From Lachnoclostridium phytofermentans (lineage in GTDB: Bacteria > Bacillota > Clostridia > Lachnospirales > Lachnospiraceae): DNA of 64,000 bases. The DNA lies in contig NZ_JPOF01000001.1 of NCBI RefSeq assembly GCF_000733755.1, forward strand, positions 476,001-540,000. The letters run 5' to 3'. Below are positions 9,475-40,121 of this stretch, piece by piece. The first letter of the stretch is position 1. Each line of letters opens with the position of its first letter. The position numbers and the translations under genes were made by a program. The notes under the pieces are model-generated. The model was not told the DNA's origin. It worked only from the letters and a program-made list of their open reading frames with translations, and did not search any database.

Positions 9475-9553
9475 ACACTTCTTATTATCTGGTATCAAAG
9501 GGTGTTATCTAAAAAGCGTAAGTGTGTTAGCGCACAAAGTATGGTTATGAGAA

Positions 9554-9577
9554 GGCGCTAAAGCGCTAGAATAGAGG
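9554..9577 (+). promoter_or_regulatory. Hairpin-RBS element upstream of accD
   Basis: GGCGCTAAAGCGCT, whose GCGC arms pair around a TAAA-type loop, is followed by AGAATAGAGG and then ATG 9583. Apart from one base in the stem it matches the element before fabZ. Confidence 0.6.
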
Positions 9578-9582
9578 TTACA

Positions 9583-10512
9583 ATGGGAATGTTTAAGAAA
9601 ACTGGAAACACGTCGGAGAAAGAAACCAGAAGGAATGAAAAAGTGAAAAATATGATGAATGAGCCACAAGTTCCCGATGGATTGTTTCAAAAATGTGAAA
9701 AATGTGGTGAAATTATTTATGCGGAAGATATAATAGCAAATTACTATATCTGCCCAAACTGTAATAATTACTTTCGAATCGCTCCCAAAACGAGACTTAG
9801 TATGGTTCTGGATAAAGGAAGCTTTATCGAATTTGATGTGGATTTACCAATTAGTAATCCACTTGATTTCCCAGGTTATGAAGCTAAGCTATCTCATATG
9901 AAGTCTGTCAATAATCTTGACGAAGCAATTATAACAGGAGAAGGAAGAATCTGCGGTGCAAGCGTTTCCATCGGTGTTATGGCCTCAACCTTCTTGATGG
10001 GAAGTATGGGCGGAGTAGTCGGTGAAAAAATCACTAGGTTGATTGAATATGCAACTGAGAAACGACAACCGCTGATATTATTTTGTTGTTCTGGTGGAGC
10101 AAGGATGCAGGAGGGAATTATATCTCTTATGCAGATGGCAAAGACAAGTGCAGCCTTAAAACGTCATTCCGATGCTGGATTAATTTATATCCCAATTCTA
10201 ACAGATCCAACTACCGGAGGTGTTGTTGCAAGTTTTGCAATGCTTGGTGATGTGATTCTTGCAGAGCCAGGAGCTTTAATTGGTTTTGCTGGACCACGTG
10301 TAATTGAACAGACGATTGGTCAGAAATTACCAGAAGGATTTCAACGTGCTGAGTTTTTATTAGAGCATGGGTTTATCGATAAAATTGTGAAACGAAGCAG
10401 ATTAAAACAAGTATTATCCTTCTTAATCAAAACAAGTATGAACCCTACTTATGAATCCATCTATGAAGAGGAGGAGCAAGTAGAAACGTCCGAACTAGAT
10501 GAGTTCTTATAG
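9583..10512 (+). CDS. accD: Acetyl-CoA carboxylase carboxyltransferase subunit beta
   Basis: AccD with AccA transfers the carboxyl group from biotin to acetyl-CoA. The N-terminal zinc ribbon is intact (CEKCG ... CPNCNNYF, four Cys), followed by the crotonase-type core with SGGARMQEG and [16 protein letters not shown], which binds the CoA carbonyl. The C-terminus is an acidic tail. Length is 309. Two ATGs lie close together (9583 and 9589); the first has the better-spaced AGAGG. The upstream gap of 117 bp holds the repeat at 9455 and the hairpin element. Confidence 0.95.
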
Positions 10513-35249: not shown

Positions 35250-36685
35250 GGCTCTTTGTCAAGTGTTGGGGTATGATTGGACTCAATCATGCCCCATTAC
35301 TGGATTTAGAGCTGTTTTTATGTAGAGGTTCTAGAAATTCTATTTTTGGGCATGACAAATAAACCTTCGTGCCAGTCTGTTTTTATTTAGTTACAAGAGT
35401 GTAAAATACGGGTACGAAAACGTTCAAAGTTATGGATACCATATGAGGTACGTTTAAGAACCTTAATCTTGTTATTAAAGCCCTCTGTGGAACCGTTTGT
35501 AATTCCGTACTTAAAAGCATTTAATATTTCATTTGACCAATACCGATATGTTGCAGCGCACTTTTCAAACTCTTTAATACCTGAACTTTCAGCATTGCGG
35601 ATCCATTCATAGAACTCTGTTCTTTGGATTGAGTACTTTGTATTCTGACAAATATCATAAAACCATTCTTTTAGCATATGTGCTTTTCTTAAATCATCAT
35701 TATAAAGTAACATAATGTCACATGCTTTTTTATCCCTATTTTCTAGTTGTTTATACCTTGCTAAAATTAGTTTATGACTGCGTTTATAGTATTTTCTCAT
35801 CGTTGCAGTCATGCTTTTTTGTAGTCTTTTACGTACATTTTCGATGGCCCATGTAACTTGACGAACAAAGTGATATTTATCGATTATGACTTGAGCGTTA
35901 GGGAAAAAGCTATGAGCCAAATCAACATAAGGTTGCCACATATCACATACAAAATACTTTACGCGGTACCGCTCACTTCGGTTTATTTCTTTAAAATAAG
36001 AGGCTAAATGCGCTTGTGAACGATTTGGGAGGATATCCATTATAGAACGTTGCTTTGGATTTACTAGAATACATTGATATTTTCCAGTTTCAGCATTCCC
36101 CTTAAATTCATCAATTGAAATGGCTTCTTTTAAAGAAGGACAAGTATAATGAATAGTATCAAGAATTCGCGCCACAGTTGTAGCTGAGACATTCGCTCGA
36201 CGGGCTACGGTTTTTAAAGTCACGCTTTGTCTAAGTTCATTTACGATGTATTTAGTAAGTCGAGTAGTACGTTGTTGGTAATGTGCTAAAAAATCGTATT
36301 TTTCACTGAATCTTTTACCACATGCACAGCGATAACGTCTTTTTCTAAGTATTAGATAGCAGTCCTTCATCTGAAATGGTAGATCCCTAATAGTCTGTTG
36401 CCTGTAATCATGAACCTTATTTGTCTTAGCACCACAGGAAGGGCAAGTGTGAGTTTTTGCCTTAGTTTCAATAAATATTTTTACAAAAGAATCCGCATGA
36501 ATGATATTTTTTATTTTTACCTCTTTTAAATCTAGTAATTTATTGATACAATAATTATGCATTATTGCAACCTCCTGGTGATTGTTTTGGTAGACTGGCA
36601 CTGGGAGGCTTTTTTATTATTATAAAATAAAATGTTGGAGTAGTGAATTAATTTATTCACATACCCCAACATTTATTATAGAGCC
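35250..36685 (-). mobile_element. Intact ISL3-family insertion sequence
   Basis: The left end begins GGCTCTTTGTCAAG and continues to TGTTGGGGTATG; the right end carries the inverted copy, CATACCCCAACA to AGAGCC. The 8-bp sequence TTTTTTTA flanks both sides as a target duplication, the size typical of ISL3. One full-length transposase is encoded on the minus strand. The insertion lies between nrdD and the diguanylate cyclase and breaks no gene. Confidence 0.92.
35387..36562 (-). CDS. ISL3-family transposase
   Basis: The 391-residue protein has the N-terminal zinc finger of ISL3 transposases (CPSCGAKTNKVHDY ... RRYRCACGKRF), then a helix-turn-helix (LKTVARRANVSATTVARIL) and a DDE core: Asp in ISIDEFKG, Asp in VIIDKYHFVRQV and Glu in GSTEGFNNKIKVLKR. 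The C-terminus is complete. The start is the ATG at 36562, eight bases after CAGGAGG on the minus strand; an upstream in-frame ATG at 36601 has no ribosome site. Confidence 0.93.
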   Translation of the reverse strand: MHNYCINKLLDLKEVKIKNIIHADSFVKIFIETKAKTHTCPSCGAKTNKVHDYRQQTIRDLPFQMKDCYLILRKRRYRCACGKRFSEKYDFLAHYQQRTTRLTKYIVNELRQSVTLKTVARRANVSATTVARILDTIHYTCPSLKEAISIDEFKGNAETGKYQCILVNPKQRSIMDILPNRSQAHLASYFKEINRSERYRVKYFVCDMWQPYVDLAHSFFPNAQVIIDKYHFVRQVTWAIENVRKRLQKSMTATMRKYYKRSHKLILARYKQLENRDKKACDIMLLYNDDLRKAHMLKEWFYDICQNTKYSIQRTEFYEWIRNAESSGIKEFEKCAATYRYWSNEILNAFKYGITNGSTEGFNNKIKVLKRTSYGIHNFERFRTRILHSCN

Positions 36686-36760: not shown

Positions 36761-36788
36761 TTGATTTTTAATTTATGTATGCTATAAT
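36761..36788 (+). promoter_or_regulatory. Promoter of the diguanylate cyclase gene
   Basis: TTGATT and TATAAT are 16 bp apart. The -10 box lies inside an apparent upstream extension of the reading frame, which argues that translation starts later, at 36907. Confidence 0.6.
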
Positions 36789-36906
36789 AAAGGAAGTATA
36801 TAGAAAAAATCCCCGTGCTTTTGCTTACAGATTCGGTTTTGAAGAAGTTGGCTTGGTGATTTTGTTATCAAACTTATTAGTATTAATATCTCTAAGAGGT
36901 GAGTGG

Positions 36907-38694
36907 ATGGAAGAAAATATGATACTGACAAGAGCATATGTGGGATGTGCTACTTTTGATAGTGACTTTCGTATAAGGGTAGGAGATGAAGGCATCTATC
37001 GCATTATCGATGAAGGGAAATGTTATCCTTATTCTCTTCTCATGTTAATACATACGAAGGAGCAGGAAGAGTTTTGCCATGTGGTTCGAAATTTGAAGGA
37101 AAATGAAGTAAACAGCGGAACTTTTCATATTCGACTAGAGGACGGACAGTTTTATATTACCTATTACATCGTAGAGAATCGTGGAATTCCTTACATGGAT
37201 GGAGTGTTATATCAAATCCGACTTTATAATATCAAGGCATTCCAGCAAGTAATAACAAAACAAAAGTATGAGATTATGGATTATCGAACTATCTTAAGTT
37301 TATCTTATAATCTTTATTTTACTTATAATGTAGATACAACAATTTTTACATATTATTGGATGAGTGGAAATCAAGAAGTTATAGCGGCACAACAACCTCT
37401 TCTTGAGTGGAAGAAAGAAGTATTGGAGAATGGTTATGTAAAAGAACAAGAACAAGCAATTCTTTGTAGCATGTGTGAAGATTTGATGGAAGGAAAATCG
37501 AATTTTTATTACCAGCTCATTAATAGCATCTTAACAAAGGGAAAAGAAGAAGTACGTTGGATTGTTCGAGGTAGTGCAGTTCATGAAAAAATGAAACTAT
37601 CTAGAATTGTTGGAGTGATTGAAATTGAGAAGTTAACAGGGGATGCAAAAGATGATTTCTTTTCCGATTTAATGAATCGTGATGCTTTGACGGGTTTATT
37701 AAATAAGCGAGCGATAACTCAACTTTCAGAACAAAAGATTCAATATGCAGGTAAGGATAAATTCCGATTTTTAATCTTAGACGTTGATAACTTTAAAACA
37801 ATTAATGATACCTATGGCCATATGTTTGGTGATGAGGCTATTGTAAAAGTCGCTAATATTGTAAAAAAGATGGTTGGTGATCATGGGGTCGTCGGAAGAA
37901 TAGGCGGAGATGAATTGTTTGCTATTCTTGAAAATGTGGATGATGAAAAAAGTTTAAGAAATGTTTTAAAGGCAATAAGAGAAAATGTTGCTTATGCTTA
38001 TGTAGGTTCACAAAACAATATTCATGTCACATGTTCCATGGGGTGTGTAGAGTATCCTACCGATGGGATATCGTATAAGGAACTATTTCAGAAAGCAGAC
38101 TATAGCTTATACCTTGCGAAAGAAAAGGGAAAAAATCGTTACATCATCTATAATCCTTTAAAACACGGAGAAATAAGTTGCAAGTCTTTAAATGCTACTC
38201 TTCTTTCGATGGATACCGCGTATGCTGGATGTAATCATACGAATATTTTTTCTAAAATGATTCAATCTTTATATAAAAAGGGAGAAACTGGAATAGAAGA
38301 GGTGTTTTGCCAGTTAGGTGAATTATATCAATTGGAAAAGATTAATGTATATTATGGAGAAGAATTACCACTTATTAGGCATTGGGGGACAACCTATTCC
38401 GAGGATAAGGATGCAAAATATCTGTTAGAACAAGGATATCAGAAAAATTTTTCTGAAAATGGTGTTATTGTACTGGATAATATGAATATCGGTAAATCTT
38501 TACAAGCATATCAGATTTTCATGAGACAAAAATTAACCTTTGTGATGCAAATCATGTTGAAAAAAGATAACACAATCTTTGGATTAATTTCTTTGGAAAG
38601 AACGGTAAAAAAATCTAAGATGTCAGCAGTTGATATTAACAACTTAGAGTTGATATGCCATTTGATAGGAAATATAATCCTAGATAAAACTTAA
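36907..38694 (+). CDS. GGDEF-domain protein (probable diguanylate cyclase)
   Basis: The 595-residue cytosolic protein has an N-terminal sensor-like region (about 1-250, no clear family), a GGDEF domain (DALTGLLNKRA, LDVDNFKTINDTYGH, RIGGDELFAIL), and about 170 further residues resembling a GAF-type regulatory domain. The active-site loop is GGDEL rather than GGDEF/GGEEF. The metal-binding and substrate Asp/Asn residues are present, so synthesis of cyclic di-GMP is plausible but not certain. I see no RxxD product-inhibition site five residues before the loop. ATG 36907 follows AGAGGTGAG; an ATG at 36775 would overlap the promoter. Confidence 0.82.
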   Translation: MEENMILTRAYVGCATFDSDFRIRVGDEGIYRIIDEGKCYPYSLLMLIHTKEQEEFCHVVRNLKENEVNSGTFHIRLEDGQFYITYYIVENRGIPYMDGVLYQIRLYNIKAFQQVITKQKYEIMDYRTILSLSYNLYFTYNVDTTIFTYYWMSGNQEVIAAQQPLLEWKKEVLENGYVKEQEQAILCSMCEDLMEGKSNFYYQLINSILTKGKEEVRWIVRGSAVHEKMKLSRIVGVIEIEKLTGDAKDDFFSDLMNRDALTGLLNKRAITQLSEQKIQYAGKDKFRFLILDVDNFKTINDTYGHMFGDEAIVKVANIVKKMVGDHGVVGRIGGDELFAILENVDDEKSLRNVLKAIRENVAYAYVGSQNNIHVTCSMGCVEYPTDGISYKELFQKADYSLYLAKEKGKNRYIIYNPLKHGEISCKSLNATLLSMDTAYAGCNHTNIFSKMIQSLYKKGETGIEEVFCQLGELYQLEKINVYYGEELPLIRHWGTTYSEDKDAKYLLEQGYQKNFSENGVIVLDNMNIGKSLQAYQIFMRQKLTFVMQIMLKKDNTIFGLISLERTVKKSKMSAVDINNLELICHLIGNIILDKT

Positions 38695-38753
38695 ATTCAT
38701 AGGTGATAAAAGGAAAAAGTATATGTCAAATTGATTACTTCATGAAAAAAAGC

Positions 38754-38782
38754 TTGAAAATTCGTAGATGAAAGACTAATAT
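38754..38782 (+). promoter_or_regulatory. Promoter of ilvE
   Basis: TTGAAA and TAATAT with a 17-bp spacer. Transcription from here would give a 5' leader of about 200 nt. Confidence 0.55.
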
Positions 38783-38907
38783 ATTACATAACACGAACGG
38801 AGCCTAAGGCAAAGGATCGAAAAATCCCCAAATCATTTCTTTGTATGAGGTATCCGTAAGAAATGTAATGTAATTTAGGAGTGAGAAGAAGATCTTTCAC
38901 TAATCAA

Positions 38908-38955
38908 GTTTGTGCTTGCGCTGTCACCACAAACCCAGAAAGAAAAGCAGCGCAA
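38908..38955 (+). promoter_or_regulatory. Candidate H-type pseudoknot in the ilvE leader
   Basis: GTTTGTG (38908-38914) pairs with CACAAAC (38928-38934). TTGCGCTG (38916-38923), inside that loop, pairs with CAGCGCAA (38948-38955). Together they make a pseudoknot with 7- and 8-bp stems, loops of 1 and 4 nt, and a purine-rich third loop of 13 nt. It ends 35 bases before ATG 38991. The two helices may instead be alternatives. Confidence 0.5.
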
Positions 38956-38990
38956 CATAAGGGGAAATATATAGAAAGAAGGATGTACAG

Positions 38991-40061
38991 ATGCTGAATA
39001 TCAGATATGAGAAAACAACTGCACCTAAAGAGCTTCCTGCAGCTGACAATCCATTAAAATTCGGTACTATTTTTACCGATCATATGTTTCTTATGGATTA
39101 TGAAGAAGGAAAGGGATGGCACGATGCTCGAATTGTCCCATATGGCCCAATCTCATTAGAACCATCCGCTATGGTATTTCACTATGGTCAAGAGATGTTT
39201 GAAGGATTAAAAGCATATAAAGCAGAGGATGGAAGAACTTTATTATTCCGCCCTAATAAGAATGCAGAACGTGCAAACAATAGTAATAAGAGACTTTGTA
39301 TGCCAACTATGCCAGAAGAGGATTTTGTTGATGCTGTAAAAGCAGTGGTTAAGATAGATGAAAGATGGATTCCTACAAAACCAGGTACTTCCTTGTATAT
39401 TCGTCCGTTTATCATTGCTACAGATCCATTTCTTGGGGTACGCCCATCCCATCGTTATCTGTTTGCTATCATTTTGTCACCAGTAGGTGCTTACTATCCA
39501 GAAGGATTAAATCCAGTTAAGATTTGGATAGAGGATGAGTATGTCAGAGCAATTAAAGGTGGTATTGGAGAGGCAAAAACAGGTGGTAACTATGTAGCTT
39601 CAATGGCTTCTCAAGTAAAAGCACATGAGGAAGGGTATTCTCAGGTATTATGGTTAGATGGTAAGGAAAGAAAATATATCGAGGAAGTTGGAGCGATGAA
39701 TATTTTCTTTAAGATTAATGGTAAAGTGTTAACGCCAGAATTAAATGGTAGTATATTACCAGGAGTAACCAGAGATTCCGTGCTTACGTTATGTAAGCTT
39801 TGGAACGTTCCAGTAGAGGAAAGAAAAATATCCGTAGAGGAACTTTATGAAGCAAGCAAAGATGGTAGTTTAGAAGAAGTTTTTGGTACCGGAACAGCGG
39901 CTGTAATTTCTCCAGTAGGACACCTTCGTTTTGAAGATCATGTATTAATGGTTGGAGATGGTGGTATTGGAGAACTTAGCCAAAAGATCTATGATACGAT
40001 AACAGGGATTCAATTAGGAAAAATAGAAGATACTCTTGGCTGGACCGTTGAGGTCTCGTAA
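38991..40061 (+). CDS. ilvE: Branched-chain amino acid aminotransferase
   Basis: IlvE is the PLP-dependent enzyme for the last step of leucine, isoleucine and valine synthesis. The 356-residue length and motifs (FHYGQEMFEGLKAY, LYIRPFI, the PLP Lys in EAKTGGNYVAS, GYSQVLWLDG, YIEEVGAMN and GTGTAAVISPVG) fit the type II subfamily shared with eukaryotic enzymes. GAAGGATG precedes ATG 38991. No other ilv or leu gene is nearby, so it is a single-gene unit with its own promoter, leader and terminator. A control by amino-acid supply would fit the leader but no T-box motif is present. Confidence 0.95.
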   Translation: MLNIRYEKTTAPKELPAADNPLKFGTIFTDHMFLMDYEEGKGWHDARIVPYGPISLEPSAMVFHYGQEMFEGLKAYKAEDGRTLLFRPNKNAERANNSNKRLCMPTMPEEDFVDAVKAVVKIDERWIPTKPGTSLYIRPFIIATDPFLGVRPSHRYLFAIILSPVGAYYPEGLNPVKIWIEDEYVRAIKGGIGEAKTGGNYVASMASQVKAHEEGYSQVLWLDGKERKYIEEVGAMNIFFKINGKVLTPELNGSILPGVTRDSVLTLCKLWNVPVEERKISVEELYEASKDGSLEEVFGTGTAAVISPVGHLRFEDHVLMVGDGGIGELSQKIYDTITGIQLGKIEDTLGWTVEVS

Positions 40062-40070
40062 AGGATAAAA

Positions 40071-40121
40071 AAAGAGAGTACGTTATTCTTAGCATGAAAG
40101 AATAGCGTACTCTCTTTTTTT
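40071..40121 (+). terminator. Strong terminator after ilvE
   Basis: AAAGAGAGTACG-TTATTCTT pairs with AAGAATAGCGTACTCTCTTT with one mismatch, and T's follow. The run of A before it makes it usable in both directions. Confidence 0.88.

Follow-up and report, generated by a model that had tools for sequence, protein, structure and literature searches.

A dispersed pseudoknot unit with its own Shine-Dalgarno sequence at ribosome-binding sites of unrelated genes in Lachnoclostridium phytofermentans and its relatives

Introduction

SAM-II, preQ1-II and NAD+-II are H-type translational riboswitches with an A- or purine-rich third loop (L3), located at the Shine-Dalgarno (SD) sequence, and they precede few, functionally related genes. 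Elements of the IS200/IS605 type, like their non-autonomous derivatives, have hairpins near their ends and insert in a defined orientation 3' of a short target. The unit described here, one copy of which lies in the leader of ilvE, resembles the three riboswitches in its two interlocking helices, its purine-rich L3 and its placement at the SD; unlike them, it precedes unrelated genes, brings its own SD and occupies positions that turn over between sister species. To the IS200/IS605 group it bears a resemblance only; its left flank and its right end both look SD-like.

BOX, RUP and SPRITE are small interspersed repeats of Streptococcus pneumoniae, and the part of their account drawn on here describes them neither with a pseudoknot and an SD nor between an SD and a start codon (PMC3049150). 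Set against that part of the account, our unit appears to work like a repeat of the BOX/RUP type that also carries a translational pseudoknot. The STAXI motif is a repeated pseudoknot which, according to the portion of its description used here, occurs in tandem copies near DNA-handling genes (PMC2864571), whereas our unit sits at the ribosome-binding sites of unrelated genes. No description of this element was found in the open-licence literature searched.

The pseudoknot of the ilvE leader is one copy of a dispersed structured repeat that occupies SD-to-start spacers and carries its own SD; this repeat is likely to have spread by insertion and would act at translation initiation. Insertion between an SD and a start codon should silence the gene. 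If our reading is true, an element with its own structured ribosome-binding site would let mobile DNA be tolerated in a new manner and would at once offer a ready-made route to a genome-wide translational regulon; the unit precedes the core genes dnaE, smc, dnaK, ileS, carB and purC.

Results

A pseudoknot in the ilvE leader

The window, that is, the whole stretch of 64,000 nucleotides that was analysed, carries ilvE, encoding a branched-chain amino acid aminotransferase (38991–40061; NF009897, 420 bits), followed by a terminator-like hairpin (40071–40117); these and all the leader features below are on the forward strand. The original prediction had placed two perfect, interlocking helices of 7 and 8 bp with a 13-nt purine-rich L3 ahead of this gene, and sequence and fold agree with it throughout. 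Helix S1 pairs GUUUGUG (38908–38914) with CACAAAC (38928–38934) and helix S2 pairs UUGCGCUG (38916–38923) with CAGCGCAA (38948–38955), both being supported by fold and covariation. Within this pseudoknot (38908–38955) L1 measures 1 nt, L2 4 nt and L3 13 nt (CCAGAAAGAAAAG, 38935–38947), and the 3' end of S2 lies 35 nt before the ATG of ilvE, as had been claimed. Upstream of the pseudoknot the unit can include a hairpin, P0, which is present here (AGUGA.../...UCACU, 38880–38901; fold of locus L192) and has counterparts of similar form and position in other copies. Downstream of S2, the SD-like AGGGGA (38960–38965) was assigned to the unit from its sequence and a spacing count; its GGGG core is 26 nt from the ATG, as against usually 6 nt in other copies, a departure from the usual SD spacing that speaks against our explanation. 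The likely native SD of ilvE, AAGAAGGA (38976–38983), is found downstream of the unit, and relatives without the unit have a purine-rich SD in the same place, judging by eye.

At the 5' end of the leader, a long imperfect hairpin of 93 nt (38780–38872, closing UAUAUUACAU/AUGUAAUGUA) is strong in the fold, lies outside the dispersed family and is, by eye, absent from the ilvE leader of the sister genome G003; in the scan of 38650–39050 it had no credible Rfam match. P0, this hairpin and the native SD had not been mentioned in the original prediction. The promoter TTGAAA-17-TAATAT (38754–38782; 9 of 12 matches) is present as stated. Its motif recurs, by eye, in the ilvE leaders of congeners and of some other genera, and the proposed leader of about 200 nt is therefore likely. 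As bare patterns, neither the promoter nor the pseudoknot is beyond chance: the promoter scan returned 6 sites against a shuffled mean of 6.0, and interlocking perfect stems of 7 and 8 bp occur, within the same bounds, at two more places on the forward strand of the window and at two on the reverse strand. A T-box or another known leader had not been seen at this site, and in agreement with this no Rfam 15 family, the T-box included, reached its gathering threshold in the window; E-value scans of sets of 9 and 20 loci and of 38650–39050 returned only matches far under the gathering scores.

Recurrence of the pseudoknot

It is recurrence that lifts the pseudoknot above chance. When the ilvE leader was compared by blastn with 98 genomes, its own (G000) included, repeated short matches to 38879–38922 were obtained in G000 and G003, at places with the same layout ahead of unrelated genes. 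The pattern of S1 and GCG alone, GTTTGTGN{0,4}GCGN{2,12}AAAC, has 16 matches in G000 and none in the reversed control; an S2 partner lies downstream in all 16, which was equalled by 0–26 of 500 shuffles (by 7 in the case of the window copy). Most of the 397 genomes of the host family contain 0–2 matches to the same pattern, as does the control, and higher counts were found in G003 (27), G136 (29), G205 (19), G237 (18), G305 (18) and G214 (15), with controls of 0–5; the counts include some sites twice, G205 being an example, because both strands match there. Matches in G136, a 2.4-Mb genome, and in G432 are copies read on the opposite strand, and the ten matches in G386 proved to be ten exact copies of GTTTGTGGCGATGAAAGAAAC, one apparently unrelated repeat. 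A narrower pattern gave 13 stretches in a scan of named records, all from Lachnoclostridium phytofermentans UBA11728, a scan from which own-genome records may be excluded.

Structure and covariation of the unit

The unit, about 75–120 nt long, begins with the optional P0 hairpin and continues with the H-type pseudoknot S1/S2, which a gap of 4 nt separates from an SD belonging to the unit; the start codon follows. Alignment A1 took 28 of the 69 copies with a start codon, excluding type A, long-L3 variants, near-duplicates, copies of other layout and copies in which S2 was unresolved by the script. In A1, 93.4% of cells pair and double-sided changes occur in 8 of 20 pairs (0 of 500 shuffles), with a nearly invariant S1 core and a covarying S2. 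The covariance model R1, in which S2 is entered as pairs and S1 as sequence, scores the window copy at 58.7 bits (38903–38973), this copy being one of the 28 model sequences. R1 matched all 100 loci chosen from its better matches, and these make up alignment A2, which leans to S2, overlaps partially with A1 and contains 46 copies from G214, G305 and G283, genomes absent from A1. Here 94.3% of cells are paired and 14 of 19 pairs have double-sided changes, and none of 500 shuffles did as well on any measure; the two helices behave alike (S1, 94.6% paired and double-sided changes in 7 of 10 pairs; S2, 94.1% and 7 of 9), and slid controls give 22–48% paired. G-U far exceeds A-C (75 versus 17 in S1, 68 versus 25 in S2), which assigns the structure to the coding strand, as expected for RNA or single-stranded DNA of that strand. 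In A1 and A2 together S1, GUUUGUG/CACAAAC, is near-invariant in copies from 12 genera and the second helix covaries; such a shared structure with covariation is what a metabolite riboswitch would also display.

In 15 type-A copies a conserved block extends from GAGTGAAAG to GGAGGCTAA between variable flanks (the 5' block was scored on nine). Like a small interspersed repeat, the unit has defined ends and many copies per genome. Sequestration of the SD by L3 in type A (UUAGC..CUCC with GGAGGCUAA, by eye) is broken in several copies and is not claimed. A variant of G136 and G432 (loci L103–L112 and L147–L149) has a 10-bp S2, CCGCAGRCGC/GCGUCUGCGG in the former genome and GUGCCUGCGG in the latter, and a long L3 with a hairpin of its own. 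An S2 of 9–10 bp with an L1 of 1–2 nt is tight for an H-type fold, which counts against our explanation, and, by eye, L3 could alternatively pair with the 3' strand of S2.

Distribution among genomes

Genomes were surveyed with R1 at E ≤ 0.001 under stricter filters, scoring no more than 12 candidates in each genome, and some of the genomes had been used in the model. Matches were obtained in 47 of 397 genomes, or 42 of 334 genera, of the host family (probably Lachnospiraceae). A class-wide draw of 341 genomes gave two with a match, both belonging to the host family, and none outside it. Fuller counts at E ≤ 0.01 were made in 13 genomes picked for having matches: the own genome has 30 copies (43 at E ≤ 1), and the others have 43 (G003), 32 (G205), 49 (G214), 27 (G237), 22 (G283), 42 (G305), 24 (G314), 8 (G356), 10 (G390), 11 (G259), 15 (G432) and 3 (G136), the last being an undercount because its L3 is long. 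R1 also matched in G028 (2), G058 (1), G020 (10), G149 (7) and G341 (12), and had no match in the congeners G001 (78% complete), G002 and G004. A phage origin was considered and rejected: among the five viral contigs matching the short pattern, one has a strong copy and the others score 14.9–18.9 bits or nothing. The strong copy (L395, 7797–7870, 90.9 bits) precedes what looks by eye like a cation-transporting ATPase gene, so that this part of the viral-contig record is probably the host flank of a prophage.

Placement at ribosome-binding sites

A same-strand SD and ORF start lie downstream of 14 of the 16 own-genome pattern matches, the exceptions being L046 and L059. The same was found, at 12–75 nt, for 53 of a wider set of 60 hand-picked pattern matches, four truncated loci having been set aside and loci of G136, G432 and G103 not being counted. 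In A2 the start codon falls on the last three positions of the model in 87 of 100 copies; in the 87 scored copies the distance from S2 to the SD is exactly 4 nt in 83 and that from the SD core to the start exactly 6 nt in 54, both counts being helped by the presence of these columns in the model.

By score, P0 is present in 85 of 158 copies, none of which was dropped for a short flank. In the 18 nt around the 5' side of P0, 67 of these 85 copies have 4 nt or more of continuous SD-like sequence, versus 32, 37 and 32 of 85 in three control windows; for 5 nt or more the figures are 40 versus 6, 11 and 9. The position of this upstream SD peaks at −10 to −5 relative to P0. Against our explanation, it is absent from 18 of the 85 copies, and about 40% of control windows contain a 4-nt stretch. 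We read it as the stranded native SD of the gene. Tandem or nested units start just after the SD of the preceding unit (L061; L117, L121 and L124; L066).

Genes behind the unit

Downstream genes were named with NCBIfam or Pfam from the first 300 residues, so several scores are under whole-protein cut-offs. In the own genome they encode an arabinofuranosidase, a ThiF/TcdA-like protein, Hsp33 and ABC transporters, and further include leuA, hisB, trpD, dnaE, ilvE, truA, gatA and smc; in G214 and G305 they comprise hom, argG, dnaK, nrdG, purC, ileS, carB and ddl together with genes for a purH-type enzyme, pyruvate kinase, BioY, MatE and GH43. The genes rplM, frr, gpmI, purF and argB were recognised by eye only. 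The 40 proteins scanned represent unrelated families, with no common pathway or signal evident among them; six had no family at the NCBIfam and Pfam thresholds used. NCBIfam gave none for the protein behind L194. When 98 downstream proteins were compared all against all, only 7 pairs reached 1e-15, and three of these look orthologous, namely dnaE and a small hypothetical protein (G000–G003) and hom (G214–G305). Further sites common to two genomes are gatA, hisB and the gene at L245.

Empty sites, remnants and shared sites

For 22 loci of G000 or G003 we searched the other of these two genomes for the counterpart, for 12 of them G002 and G004 as well, and we aligned a part of the set. At 3 of the 22 loci a close relative has a clean empty site, flanked by an SD and the ATG, as either insertion or precise loss would leave: at L062 G000 has GAGAGGAGAA directly before CTTATG, at L250 G000 has GATGGGAG then AAAGCATG, and at L195 G003 has GGGGGGTAGA then ACATG. 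Inspection of the three by eye for a target-site duplication revealed a possible 4–6 nt repeat (TAGA/GGTAGA) at L195 and none evident at L062 and L250. At four other loci (L058, L065, L066 with G000 tlyA as counterpart, and L201 with G002 and G004) the unit is absent and the 5' flank does not align; the counterparts of L058 and L065 have an SD directly before ATG.

Remnants were seen at three loci, L060 in G000, where S1 is deleted, leuA (L185) in G003, where the 3' strand of S2 and the SD are kept, and perhaps L194; therefore loss also happens. Units are shared at gatA (L200), at hisB (L186, decayed) and at L245. The leader is otherwise changed at L057 and L197, the L063 query matched another copy, not an orthologue, and six loci (L238, L049, L209, L072, L187 and L199) gave no alignment or usable match.

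Discussion

The arrangement of stranded SD, pseudoknot, second SD and start codon suggests the following course of events. A small mobile element would enter the spacer between the native SD and the start codon, in the orientation of the gene, and leave the native SD stranded upstream; the gene would then be translated from the SD at the 3' end of the unit, abutted by the pseudoknot. The pseudoknot could insulate the new SD from pairing with upstream sequence, or it could be a gate that a trans factor sets by recognising the near-invariant S1, and we have no preference between the two. We infer movement by insertion, as opposed to precise loss, and regulation at initiation. A bolder version, which we offer only tentatively and regard as rather doubtful, is that the element homes to ribosome-binding sites, survives because its pseudoknot-capped SD restores translation and, in each genome, places 20–50 unrelated genes under a single translational signal that is read through the near-invariant S1.

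The most substantial alternative is a class of riboswitch or protein-responsive leader that would have multiplied through ordinary duplication of regulatory sequence and come to govern a very large regulon; a ligand or protein on S1 would stabilise the pseudoknot by the SD and so set the translation of many genes. The near-invariant S1 across 12 genera, the covarying S2 and the fixed 4-nt distance to the SD all fit it, as do the many biosynthetic and translational targets (leuA, hisB, trpD, argG, purC and ileS; rplM and frr by eye), and structural conservation across genera could mean host regulation and not selfish spread. Yet no single metabolite suits so heterogeneous a set of targets, a shared global signal being still conceivable; few of the targets are orthologous, as the comparison of 98 proteins indicates, the unit is missing or decayed at other orthologous loci, and three congeners have no match at all. 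We consider this alternative unlikely, albeit with an appreciable chance of being correct. A leader peptide, encoded by a short ORF that would use the upstream SD and a GUG or UUG in P0 and would open S1 when translated, is very unlikely. It would account for the SD peak 5–10 nt before P0 and for the start codon within the 5' strand of many P0 stems, but an SD with a start codon precedes S1 in only 66 of 160 copies, the frames are divided 24/23/19, stops are scattered before, inside and after the unit, and many copies have no P0; a conserved leader peptide of the attenuator kind was thus rejected, having no fixed frame.

The remaining readings concern the window copy itself. The original prediction raised the possibility of a regulatory pseudoknot before ilvE, which as a riboswitch specific to this gene would respond to a branched-chain metabolite or to PLP. 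What survives of this is a real, constrained RNA pseudoknot within the leader of about 200 nt; a role as a sensor dedicated to ilvE, amino acids or PLP is not supported. Copies before leuA and before a distant aminotransferase gene in G314 speak for such a role, but the closest ilvE orthologues lack the pseudoknot, and non-conservation of both stems in close relatives is an outcome that the original prediction had itself named as its refutation: the family model matched 2 of 20 loci, the window's own and that of the G314 aminotransferase, and had no match in the ilvE leaders of G001, G002, G003, G004, G028 and the other relatives searched. In G003, whose ilvE is 95% identical to that of the window, the leader has GATGCGCAGGAATAAGGG in place of the 3' part of the unit, a remnant by eye, automatic alignments being unusable across the unit. 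There is no special support for branched-chain amino acids, keto acids, glutamate or PLP as the ligand because the same type of RNA precedes many unrelated genes. Since the unit lies upstream of the likely native SD, it is unlikely to control the translation of ilvE directly. We therefore regard the ilvE-specific riboswitch as most improbable. That the pseudoknot is a chance product of a 64-kb window, in which equally long interlocking stems do occur elsewhere, has next to no probability, being already refuted by the family with its 30 copies in the genome, the empty reversed-pattern control and the covariation. As a copy of the dispersed repeat, the one at ilvE is probably a passenger with little direct effect on the gene.

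Other features of the window

Directly upstream of ilvE lies a gene for a GGDEF-domain protein (36775–38694, forward strand), the 3' end of which contains a promoter-like TTGATA-17-TATAAT (38650–38678), found by the scan that performs at chance level. The family model has a weak second match in the window at 9517–9585 on the forward strand (17.5 bits, E = 0.11), perhaps a decayed copy or a chance hit. An ISL3-family transposase (Pfam DDE_Tnp_ISL3) is encoded on the reverse strand at 35390–36601, with the ilvE leader following at a distance of about 2.3 kb.
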